From Ruania albidiflava DSM 18029 (GTDB lineage: Bacteria; Actinomycetota; Actinomycetes; Actinomycetales; Beutenbergiaceae): a stretch of DNA of 64,000 nt. The stretch is taken from NCBI RefSeq assembly GCF_000421225.1, contig NZ_ATWL01000002.1:248001-312000 (forward strand), in the 5' to 3' direction. The notes under the pieces are model-generated. The model worked only from the letters and a program-made list of their open reading frames with translations. It searched no databases and was not told the origin of the DNA. Shown piece after piece: positions 43,852 through 47,171 of the stretch. Numbering within the stretch: the stretch's first letter is position 1; each line of letters opens with the position of its first letter. The position numbers and the translations under genes were made by a program.

Positions 43852-44011
43852 TTGGGGTCGCAGGCCCGGACCTGGCATACTGTGCTGCTGTACTCAGCCC
43901 AGGCGGGACCCTCTCACCTGCCGGGACTGGACCCAGGACGCCGCCGGTGCCACACCCCACCAGGTCTCGCGCGCGTGTCCACCCCGAACAAGCTCAGGAG
44001 TGTCCACCACA
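43852..44011 (+). promoter_or_regulatory. rpsP promoter and structured leader
   Basis: -35 TTGGGG (43852-43857), 18-nt spacer, -10 CATACT (43876-43881): one of the few complete promoters seen here. It gives a leader of about 120 nt. The leader holds the motif CAGCCCAGGCnnGACCCTC (43895-43913), also present in the rplS leader, and ACGCCGCC (43938-43945). AGGAG (43996-44000) precedes the GTG. Nothing else is seen in 43672-43851; small frames there lack coding character. Confidence 0.6.
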
Positions 44012-44515
44012 GTGGCAGTCAAGATCCGTCTCAAGCGCCTCGGCAAGATCCGGGCGCCGTACTACCGAGTTGTCGTCGCTGACTCGCGCACCAAGCGTGA
44101 CGGTCGCGTGATCGAGGAGATCGGCAAGTACCACCCCACCGAGGAGCCCTCGCTCATCGACATCGACGGCGAGCGCGCCCGGTACTGGCTGGGCGTCGGC
44201 GCCCAGCCGAGCGACCAGGTCCTCGCCCTGCTGAAGGTGACCGGCGACTGGCAGGCTCATCTGGGCCTCGACGGCGCCGAGGGCACCCTCAAGCGCAAGG
44301 AGACCGCCGAGGACGCTGCCGCGGAGGCGATCAAGGCCGCCGAGGCCGACGCCGAGCTGCGCAAGGCCAAGGCCGCCGAGGCCAAGGCTGCTGCGGAGGC
44401 AGAGGCTGCCACGGAGGAGGCTGACGAGGGCGCCGCTGGCGAGACCGAGTCCACGGACACCGAGGCTGCTGCCGAGGAGACCGAGGACGCCGAGTCGAGC
44501 GAAAAGTCTGAATGA
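44012..44515 (+). CDS. rpsP: Ribosomal protein S16 with long acidic tail
   Basis: 167 residues. Residues 1-85 are S16 proper ([19 protein letters not shown], then [21 protein letters not shown]). From about 90 on, an Ala/Glu/Asp/Lys-rich tail of about 75 residues follows; most S16 proteins are 80-100 residues, though tails occur in actinobacteria. It is an early 30S assembly protein. The GTG at 44012 is the normal S16 start; the upstream open frame lies in the leader. The stop overlaps khpA by 4 nt. Confidence 0.96.
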
Positions 44516-44754
44516 TGCTCGCCGACGCGCTGGAGCACCTGGTCCGTGGCATCGTCGACCATCCGGACGACGTGCAGATCCGGTCCAAGTCGCTGCGCCG
44601 CGGTGACCTGCTCGAGGTCCGGGTCAACCCCAGCGACCTCGGTCGGGTGATCGGCCGCTCCGGCCGCACCGCTCGGGCGCTGCGGACCGTGGTCGGTGCA
44701 CTGGCCACCGACGGCCCGGTGCGCGTGGACGTGGTGGACGTCGACCGGCGCTGA
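44512..44754 (+). CDS. khpA: KH-domain RNA-binding protein KhpA
   Basis: 80 residues, a single type II KH domain with the GxxG loop in [19 protein letters not shown] (about 42-60). KhpA with KhpB binds many RNAs and affects cell elongation in Gram-positives. Always found between rpsP and rimM in actinobacteria. ATGATG at 44512/44515: the first overlaps the S16 stop and is chosen. Confidence 0.93.
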
Positions 44755-44774
44755 CCGGCGAGAACGATGAGTCG

Positions 44775-44810
44775 AGCGCAGGTCCGCTCCCGCGGGAGCG
44801 GACCTGCGCT
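44775..44810. terminator. Perfect 36-bp palindrome, terminator
   Basis: Two 18-bp arms without loop, 20 nt after khpA and 30 nt before rimM. In RNA it forms a long GC hairpin that would end or attenuate the rpsP-khpA transcript and so lower rimM-trmD expression. No U-tract. Confidence 0.75.
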
Positions 44811-44840
44811 CGGTTCGTCCCAGAGACCCAGGGGGAACAG

Positions 44841-45392
44841 GTGAACCAGCCCAGCGGTGACGAGGAGGTCTACCTGCGCGTGGCCACCATCGGCGCGCCG
44901 CGCGGACTGGCCGGGCAGGTGCGCCTGCGGCTGCACACCGACGACCCACGTACCCGGCTGGCCACCGGGACGCTGCTGAGCACCGAGCCGGCCGCCGTCG
45001 GGCCGCTGCAGGTGGCCAGCATCCGGCAGGTGCAGCAGCACTGGTACGCCACCTTCGCCGGCATCACCGACCGGACCGGCGCCGAAGCGCTGCGCGGTGT
45101 GGTGCTGCTCGCCGCACCGGACGAGAGCGAGCCGGAGGCCTGGTACCCGCACCAGCTGGCCGGGCTACGCGCCGAACGCGCCGACGGCACCCTGCTGGGC
45201 AGCATCGACGGCGTGCAGCACCTGCCCGCCCAGGACGCCCTGGTGCTGCACGAGGTCGGCGGTCAGCGCACCCTGGTGCCGTTCGTCACCGCGATCGTTC
45301 CGGTGGTGGACGTCCCGGGCGGCCGGGTGGTGCTCGACCCGCCGACCGGGCTGCTCGCCAGCGACCCTGACGAGCGCGGCGGGCAGCGATGA
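44841..45392 (+). CDS. rimM: Ribosome maturation factor RimM
   Basis: 183 residues. N-terminal domain with [23 protein letters not shown] (the GxxGxxGxxR element of RimM); C-terminal PRC-barrel with [22 protein letters not shown] and [23 protein letters not shown]. It binds S19 and helps 30S head assembly. GTG at 44841 after a GGGGGAAC-type site. The stop overlaps trmD (ATGA). Confidence 0.95.
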
Positions 45393-46645
45393 CCGGCCGG
45401 ATCGACGTCGTCACGATCTTCCCTGGCTACCTCGCCCCGCTCGAGCTCAGCCTGGTCGGCAAGGCCCGCGCCGCCGGGCTGCTCACCGTGGACGTGCACG
45501 ACCTGCGGGACTGGACCACAGACGCCCACCGCACCGTGGACGACACCCCGTTCGGCGGCGGTGCCGGGATGGTGATGCGTCCGGACGTGTGGGGCCGCGC
45601 GCTGGACGAGGTGCTCGCCGCCGGCGCGGACGCCAGCCGCACCGTGCTCGTGCCCACCCCCGCCGGAGAACCCTTCACCCAGGCGATGGCCGAGGAGCTC
45701 GCCCTGCTGCTGTGCGCCGGCGGCCAGCTGGCCCTTGCCTGCGGACGCTACGAGGGCATCGACGCCCGCGTCGCCGAGCACTACCAGGGCACCGGTGAGG
45801 TCACCGTGCGGGAGGTGTCCATCGGCGACTACGTGCTGAACGGCGGAGAGGTCGCCGCCCTGGTGATCATCGAGGCGGTCGCCCGGCTGCTGCCCGGGGT
45901 GATCGGCAACCCGGACTCCCTGGTGGAGGAGTCGCACGGCTCCGCCGGGCTGCTGGAGTACCCGGTGTACACCAAACCCCCGGGCTGGCGCGGGCTGGAC
46001 GTGCCCGAGGTGCTGCTCTCCGGCGACCACGGCCGTATCGCCCGCTGGCGCCGCCGCCGCGCCGTGGACCGCACCGCCGCCCGCCGCCCCGACCTGATCG
46101 ACGCCCTCGGCCCGGCGCAGGTGCGCCCCGCCCGTGCTGCGGACGCCGAGGCGCTGGCCGAGGTGGCGGGCCGCACCTTCCCGCTGGCCTGCCCGGCCTC
46201 GGTGCCCGCAGCGGACGCCGCCGCGTTCGTGGCCGAGCAGCTGAGTGCGGAGATGTTCCGCCGCTACCTGCGCGACCGTCGCCGGCACGTGCTGGTGGCC
46301 GAGCTGGCCGGCGCCATCGTCGGGTACACGATGCTGGCGGTCGGTGCGCCGGAGGACGAGCAGGTGCGCGCCGCTGCCCCCGGCGCGGGTGCTGAGCTGA
46401 GCAAGTGCTACACGCTCGAGGGCTTCCACGGCCGCGGGGTGTCCGGGGCACTGCTGGCCGAGACGCTCGACCTGGCCGCACGGCTCCGGGTGGACACGCT
46501 GTGGCTCGGGGTGAACCAGGCGAACGAGCGCGCCCAGCGGTTCTACCGCAAGCACGGCTTCCAGCGGGTGGGGGAGCGTACCTTCACCGTGGGCTCGCGC
46601 ACCGAGCACGACTACGTGATGGCGCGCACACTCGTCCGCCCCTGA
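45389..46645 (+). CDS. trmD: tRNA (guanine37-N1)-methyltransferase TrmD fused to a GNAT acetyltransferase domain
   Basis: 418 residues in one uninterrupted frame. Residues 1-243 are complete TrmD ([29 protein letters not shown]; the trefoil-knot AdoMet site [10 protein letters not shown] and [43 protein letters not shown]). Residues 245-418 are a GNAT fold: [35 protein letters not shown], and the acetyl-CoA loop [16 protein letters not shown], ending [22 protein letters not shown]. TrmD alone is about 230-280 residues. No stop, frameshift or internal Shine-Dalgarno separates the parts. TrmD makes m1G37 that prevents frameshifting; the acetyl acceptor is unknown. Confidence 0.93.
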
Positions 46646-46669
46646 TTTCACCGGCCCGCACCGGTGTGG

Positions 46670-46814
46670 CAGACTGGGCCAGTCATGCCGGGCGCTCACC
46701 GCCTCTGCCACAGGGGAGCGGGATCTACAGCCCAGGCCTGACCCTCGACTCGAAGGCGGCGCACGCCGCCCGGACTAGCGCGGGTGACCTGTGGCAGCCG
46801 TGGGAAGGTACACG
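46670..46814 (+). promoter_or_regulatory. rplS promoter and structured leader, candidate L19 regulatory RNA
   Basis: -10 CAGACT (46670-46675), then about 130 nt of leader. A perfect 10-bp long-range stem (46705-46714 with 46788-46797) encloses a 6-bp hairpin GGCGGC/GCCGCC (46755-46770) and the motif CAGCCCAGGCnnGACCCTC (46728-46746), shared with the rpsP leader. The outer stem ends 4 nt before the GGGAAGG ribosome-binding site, so folding could control translation. Confidence 0.6.
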
Positions 46815-47171
46815 ATGAACATCCTGGACAACGTCGACGCCGCTTCGCTGCGTGAGGACATCCCGGACTTCCGGCCCGGTGACACTGTGAAGGTGCACGT
46901 GAAGGTCATCGAGGGCAACCGGTCCCGGATCCAGATCTTCCAGGGTGTCGTCCTGGCCCGCTCCGGCGGTGGCGTGCGCGAGACCTTCACGGTCCGCAAG
47001 GCCTCCTTCGGTGTCGGTGTGGAGCGTACCTTCCCGCTGCACTCGCCCACCGTGGACCACATCGAGGTCGCCAGCCGGGGCGTGGTCCGCCGCGCCAAGC
47101 TCTACTACCTGCGCGACCGGCACGGCAAGGCTGCCAAGATCCGCGAGCGCCGCGAGACCGCCGCGAAGTGA
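46815..47171 (+). CDS. rplS: Ribosomal protein L19
   Basis: 118 residues, standard: [20 protein letters not shown] (about 16-35), [26 protein letters not shown] and the end [18 protein letters not shown]. It sits at the interface of the 30S and 50S subunits. ATG 46815 follows GGGAAGG; an in-frame upstream start is in the leader. A hairpin terminator follows at once. Confidence 0.97.

Follow-up and report, generated by a model that had tools for sequence, protein, structure and literature searches.

Separate conserved leader RNAs before rplS and rpsP in actinobacteria, the rplS leader with two complementary hairpin loops

In Firmicutes, the leader of the L19 gene contains the Rfam family L19_leader, which we take to be RF00556 and which is presumed to be an L19 feedback element. 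In the part of a 2020 survey cited here (PMC7247131), the L19 leader is extended to Flavobacteria, and a predicted S16 r-leader upstream of rpsP and rimM is listed for Flavobacteria (Table 1 of that survey). The same part lists Actinobacteria, or groups within them, with the L17 and L31 leaders. In mycobacteria, S15 feedback through a 5' pseudoknot of the rpsO leader has been reported, the pseudoknot being needed for feedback on translation (the cited part of a 2021 study, PMC8470358). That part describes ribosomal protein-mediated regulation in Actinobacteria as a subject with almost no information. Similarly, the cited part of a 2024 review (PMC10931766) states that regulation of expression of the trmD operon (rpsP, rimM, trmD, rplS) is so far without information.

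We analyzed a window of 64,000 nt from Ruania albidiflava DSM 18029, in which the gene order is rpsP-khpA-rimM-trmD-rplS. The S16 gene rpsP (44012..44515, + strand; GTG start; PF00886, 7.9e-24) is followed by the gene for the KH-domain protein KhpA (44512-44754; PF13083), by those for RimM (from 44841) and a TrmD-acetyltransferase fusion (from 45389), both assigned with Pfam, and by the L19 gene rplS (46815..47171, + strand; PF01245, 2.5e-50). The leader features described below are all on the + strand.

The leaders of rpsP and rplS are two separate conserved structured RNAs and not one element. The original prediction for this locus had held that both genes carry regulatory leaders undescribed for actinobacteria and that these share a single site. 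The wider suspicion stands, but the single shared site does not. In openly licensed PubMed Central papers, we found no description of an actinobacterial leader for either rplS or rpsP. The rplS element shares its place upstream of the L19 coding sequence with the Firmicutes L19_leader, but at family cut-offs no Rfam family, L19_leader included, was matched in the window or in ten relatives. At E <=10, three other families appeared between 43800 and 47000 (E 1.5-6.6), none of them over a leader and none of them L19_leader. The two L19 elements are set apart here by search score rather than by a column-by-column comparison of consensus. The rpsP leader has the same gene and the same proposed ligand as the S16 r-leader that the cited part of the survey lists for Flavobacteria; we liken the two by gene and ligand, not by motif. 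The mycobacterial rpsO leader, as far as the cited part describes it, is also an actinobacterial ribosomal protein leader, but it has another gene and ligand and a pseudoknot in place of the two hairpins that appear to be joined loop to loop here.

The 19-nt motif common to both leaders

The single site had been proposed because the motif CAGCCCAGGCnnGACCCTC occurs in both leaders, where one regulator would bind it and co-control rpsP and rplS. Both copies are exact, at 43895-43913 in the S16 leader and at 46728-46746 in the L19 leader, and have an identical spacer, which speaks for the proposal. ACGCCGCC, read directly from the sequence, is also present in both leaders, at 43938 and 46763. 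We detected no third match to CAGCCCAGGCnnGACCCTC within the 64,000-nt window at up to 3 mismatches. Across the whole assembly, there were 3 matches at up to 2 mismatches, consisting of the two exact copies and one with 2 mismatches. When the two leaders alone were dinucleotide-shuffled, 17/19 identity was reached in 2/2000 cases, again in favor of a shared site. The pair would thus be unusual in isolation, but probably not among the many leader pairs that a reader can compare. Same-strand pairs of 19-mers at >=17/19 amount to 450 distinct events in the window, including those in coding sequence and local repeats. The 19-mer pair is therefore not beyond chance once the search is counted, which argues against a dedicated site.

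Conservation of the motif in relatives' leaders had been named beforehand as the point on which the proposal would turn, and the motif is not kept in them. At best, 10-13 of the 17 fixed positions were matched in 20 rpsP orthologs from the family and 9-14 in 20 rplS orthologs, the range that shuffled leaders also cover (8-14 of 17). In neither leader did any of the 20 family orthologs exceed 14/17, and none of the 20 other genomes had an rpsP/rplS leader pair of its own above 15/19. The nearest relative by L19 (L091, 96% identity) scores 12/17 before rpsP and 10/17 before rplS. One point for conservation comes from a congener (L095), which retains CAGCCCAGGC in its rplS leader and reaches 14/17, a score that shuffles equal in 4/2000 cases; its rpsP leader reaches only 11/17. 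The two copies also differ in where they lie. The first copy (43895..43913) comprises the 5' arm and loop start of a hairpin, P1, in which the arm is lineage-specific and the loop is conserved, and it is not conserved as a unit. The second copy sits in a poorly conserved linker between two hairpins, which further argues against a shared regulator site. Taken together, these data make a shared site for one regulator highly improbable, and the 19-mer common to both leaders is most likely a coincidence.

Complementary hairpin loops in the rplS leader

In kissing complexes such as that of ColE1 RNA I/RNA II, about 7 bp form between two hairpin loops. The rplS leader presents a predicted pairing of similar size, but its two hairpins belong to a single mRNA leader and are separated by a variable linker. 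A promoter-like extended -10 element (TGG + CAGACT, 46667..46675) can be read from the sequence, with similar elements seen by eye in many orthologs, and would place the transcription start at about 46682. Hairpin H1 (46699..46721) follows, with a stem of CTC/GAG and CCG/CGG whose pairs covary, and a loop, UGCCACAGGG, that contains the 5' half of the loop-loop helix (CCACAGG, 46708..46714). The linker (46722..46778) is poorly conserved in sequence and holds the second 19-mer copy. Its own small hairpin (46755-46770) has counterparts in near relatives, and its length ranges from 41 to 175 nt across the anchored rplS leaders, a set that includes doubtful anchors. Hairpin H2 (46779..46802), whose register was tested as described below, has the loop ACCUGUGG with the 3' half of the loop-loop helix (CCUGUGG, 46788..46794). 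A Shine-Dalgarno-like GGAAGG (46803..46808), read from the sequence, abuts H2.

The same arrangement recurs in orthologs, with a 5' hairpin whose loop reads UGCCRCAGGG, a 3' hairpin whose loop reads ACCUGYGG and an H2 end at or close to the Shine-Dalgarno sequence. Seven base pairs can form between the two loops, which fits a kissing complex. Orthologous rplS leaders were collected from 20 family genomes, 80 named loci and 80 of the 117 listed class regions. Of 181 rplS leaders, 174 remained after removal of duplicates. We aligned 28 rplS leaders without structural guidance (alignment A2), delimiting rows by motif patterns and two rows (L012, L014) by hand. Across the three helices, 14 of 20 pairs changed on both sides (H1, 4/5; loop-loop helix, 3/7; H2, 7/8). 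Paired cells amounted to 89.9%, compared with 77.4% after shuffling and 26-56% for slid partners, and the covariation score for the three helices together was 0.374 versus 0.164 shuffled. Four of the seven loop-loop pairs are invariant in A2 and are uninformative either way.

We then asked how pairing holds in larger sets. Among 64 distinct leaders, 305/384 H2 stem cells were paired, whereas shifting the register by 1 or 2 gave 30-46%, and 244/320 H1 cells were paired versus 118-181 shifted. The four variable loop-loop pairs held in 62-64 of the 64 leaders, a set picked by a regular expression that partly fixes arm letters, so that invariant pairs are in part due to selection. At the four variable positions, pairing is kept through A-U/G-C/U-A, C-G/U-A, A-U/G-C and G-C/A-U. 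In a wider anchored set (118/174), which includes doubtful carriers (e.g. L112, L124, L126, L131, L173, L188 and some Pseudonocardiaceae), the H2 register is paired at 74% versus 32-46% shifted, and the first three H1 pairs at 83% in place versus 86% (-2) and 78% (-1). The exact register of H1 is thus less sure and not unique, because a G run lets shifted registers pair about as often.

We placed the pair states on a quickly built tree from TrmD and L19 (64 rows, 59 including TrmD), where the four variable positions of the loop-loop helix require 9, 2, 4 and 2 changes. Among the independent-pair tests listed, a change of one base went with a concordant change of its partner or with none, with one position averaging 0.1 in the opposite direction and one H2 position having a mostly static partner. 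Sign tests of single pairs on the tree were underpowered (best median p 0.125 among the tests listed).

As a control for selection, we used anchors that leave key loop positions free. These were passed by 129/174 distinct leaders, of which 109/129 pair at >=6/7 and 101 at 7/7, a count that scores as negative some leaders with an extra base in the arm (e.g. L012, L014) that by eye resemble carriers. Shuffled leaders passed the same anchors in 793/3480 cases, and 54/793 of these pair at >=6/7. Pairing was found in 45/80 class regions and in 51/78 distinct named loci. By contrast, 0/17 distinct Pseudonocardiaceae leaders pair at >=6/7. The rplS element consists of two hairpins with complementary loops in which all helices covary, as would be expected of a kissing-loop RNA with stems and loop-loop helix in the same molecule. 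Folding of single sequences gave structures no stabler than shuffles (z 0.21 for rplS, -0.09 for rpsP), z-scores that are uninformative, and for the rplS leader of the window the predicted energy minimum differs from the two-hairpin form.

The original prediction had also described a perfect 10-bp stem in the rplS leader. This stem (46705-46714 with 46788-46797) is real when read from the sequence, and is the longer form of a loop-loop helix that many families of the class possess. A perfect long-range stem in the window raises the alternative of a leader that switches between mutually exclusive folds, with the two hairpins formed locally in one and opened by a long-range helix of 9-10 bp in the other. 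In agreement with such a switch, CCUGYGG is followed by C in 117/118 anchored leaders and by U in the remaining one; this base has two possible partners, one in H1 and one in H2, each of which is G in 118/118, although the anchors partly favor these letters. However, the 7-bp core lies inside both loops and uses neither stem, and covariation extends over stems and loop helix alike, such that exclusivity is not needed. We consider a switch of this kind unlikely and favor two hairpins that would be held together through their loops.

A C-rich hairpin in the rpsP leader

The rpsP leader is built from other parts. A promoter-like extended -10 element (TGG + CATACT, 43873..43881), read from the sequence, would direct transcription from about 43888, and by eye a TGGCANAAT-like element is present at a similar place before rpsP in many orthologs. 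Hairpin P1 (43892..43932), which is supported by covariation, carries a conserved C-rich loop with the sequence CCCUCU (43909..43914). A second C-rich element, CCCCAC (43955..43960), is conserved downstream of P1, and a Shine-Dalgarno AGGAG (43996..44000) can be read before the gene.

We collected 166 rpsP leaders, of which 156 were kept after removal of duplicates and of leaders <100 nt; at least two of the 156 (L116, L124) end at contig ends and show coding sequence instead of leader. CCCUCU is present in 128/156 distinct leaders and lies 92-127 nt before the S16 match; 4% would be expected after shuffling. The motif falls inside a predicted hairpin loop in 117/128 carriers, compared with 140/640 when the flanks are shuffled. 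CCCCAC accompanies it in 103/128 carriers, with 11% expected after shuffling.

In an alignment of 27 rpsP leaders (A1, rows delimited by motif patterns), in which the GGAG of the Shine-Dalgarno sequence is invariant, 81.8% of P1 cells were paired compared with 21-48% for slid partners, and the covariation score was 0.407 versus 0.160 shuffled. The upper stem is paired in only 65.7% of cells, and two of five P1 measures were unexceptional relative to shuffles (58 and 102 of 500). Of the 27 aligned leaders, 25 have the two outermost pairs (A-U, C-G), which are missing from the copy in the window. Covariation support is stronger for the rplS leader than for the rpsP leader. We considered whether the CCCUCU loop might pair with the rpsP Shine-Dalgarno sequence, but by eye found only 4 bp and set this aside.

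C exceeds G in 128/128 CCCUCU carriers (mean 40% vs 27%), unlike in rplS leaders (35% vs 33%) or at the start of the rpsP coding sequence (30% vs 32%). This composition, together with the position of P1 near the presumed 5' end, speaks for Rho-dependent attenuation or a 5' stabilizer in place of ribosomal protein binding. Neither of these accounts for a covarying stem that encloses a conserved loop sequence, and we regard both as improbable. KH domains prefer C-rich RNA, and the C-rich rpsP loops would be plausible targets for KhpA, which is encoded between rpsP and rplS and could read the leaders alone or with KhpB; RimM, another factor of the cluster, could do so instead. The two leaders yielded no shared motif, so nothing points to a single reader, and such a role for a cluster factor seems equally improbable. 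Binding by S16 is the reading that we carry forward for the rpsP leader.

Distribution and proposed regulation

We built covariance models from the 28 rplS leaders (R1) and the 27 rpsP leaders (R2), with the window's copies in both training sets and E-values that are rough. At E <=0.1, R1 matched 52/148 genomes of the class at one place each, and 51/52 matches lie directly before rplS, no more than 30 bases from the rplS match, with G039 as the exception (E 0.073). R2 matched 76 places in 67 of 148 class genomes. Of these, 65/76 are directly before rpsP and 11/76 are not beside a found S16 gene, 3 of the latter being in two genomes without an S16 match. Counts from both models are lower bounds owing to stricter filters, and reading the leaders reveals carriers that were missed (e.g. 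L147 from G213). Phylum-wide, R1 matched at least 8/396 genomes with the best 8 candidates per genome scored, a search that is uninformative on absence outside the class since it missed genomes found in the class search (e.g. G163).

We also considered mimicry of ribosomal RNA. At threshold, no rRNA was found in the window's own assembly, and a congener (G002) was used instead. The longer loop patterns, themselves short, are absent from its 16S and 23S loci; CCCTCT with a following C or A is likewise missing. CCACAGG by itself does occur in these loci, but without its partner nearby. Resemblance to the rRNA site of the protein is frequent among autogenous leaders though not a requirement, and these short patterns gave no clear sign of it.

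Ribosomal protein leaders are expected to lie in the 5' leader of a ribosomal protein gene and to have a conserved structure with covariation. The positions of the R1 and R2 matches and the covariation in both alignments agree with this. Because each element is directly upstream of a ribosomal protein gene, L19 and S16 are the first candidate ligands; the cited part of the survey (PMC7247131) also uses this position to assign other predicted r-leaders. We therefore favor, with moderate confidence, two autogenous leaders, one for L19 (rplS) and one for S16 (rpsP), each with its own promoter-like element. The pairings would form in the mRNA, the ribosomal proteins would be the ligands and the effect would be repression of translation.

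In the model that we propose for rplS, H1 near the 5' end and H2 touching the Shine-Dalgarno sequence would present their complementary loops, and a 7-bp kissing helix would form across the variable linker. Free L19 may bind and stabilize this complex, keeping the 30S subunit off the adjacent Shine-Dalgarno sequence. Since H2 abuts that sequence, a protein-stabilized loop-loop complex would hinder 30S binding. Incorporation of L19 into ribosomes would then open the complex and permit translation of rplS. For rpsP, the 5'-proximal hairpin with the CCCUCU loop and the downstream CCCCAC would most likely be bound by S16, following the same feedback logic. More tentatively, it is possible that a kissing complex beside the Shine-Dalgarno sequence controls L19 in many actinobacterial families, with the loop-loop helix as protein target or switch state, and that a separate hairpin with a C-rich loop controls S16.

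Both leader RNAs are probably functional, that of rplS being one of unusual loop-loop architecture. If the proposed regulation is correct, the rpsP-khpA-rimM-trmD-rplS cluster has two independent feedback valves. The rplS leader would then be a ribosomal protein leader built on a loop-loop interaction, for which natural compensatory changes are available. The rplS and rpsP leaders offer concrete, testable elements for the gaps in what is known of trmD operon regulation and of ribosomal protein regulation in actinobacteria.

The window's assembly and its TrmD protein

The assembly that contains the window is rated 98% complete, yet searches of it for 16S and 23S rRNA returned no match at threshold. 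Of the 14 genomes that served as controls, 9 and 10 gave a match in identical searches. Between rimM and rplS, the window encodes a tRNA methyltransferase-acetyltransferase fusion (45389-46645), in which TrmD (PF01746, residues 24-234) is followed by a C-terminal GNAT acetyltransferase domain (PF00583, residues 286-391).

Leaders of Pseudonocardiaceae and family f22

The pairing of two rplS leader hairpins, H1 (46699-46721) and H2 (46779-46802), through their loops was absent from 17/17 distinct Pseudonocardiaceae leaders (loci L015, L016, L020, L021, L022, L049, L059, L061-L063, L071, L075, L080, L082, L083, L086 and L089). Many of these leaders have other leader sequence in common, as judged by eye. 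CCCTCT, the loop of rpsP leader hairpin P1 (43892-43932), was found in 11/13 Pseudonocardiaceae rpsP leaders. By eye, all four family f22 rpsP leaders (L112-L115) lack the CCCTCT hairpin; what they have in common instead is GCAAAACCGG...CGCTGAATTGC, which may be another leader element.

An additional base in the H2 arm

When the rplS leaders of L012 and L014 were read by eye, the H2 arm resembled CCTGTGCGCA, with an extra base 3' of the loop-pairing letters. A similar arm with the extra base lies upstream of rplS in L019, L060, L097-L100 and L108-L109, also by eye. These sequences suggest that a bulge is tolerated in the long-range arm of the rplS leader.
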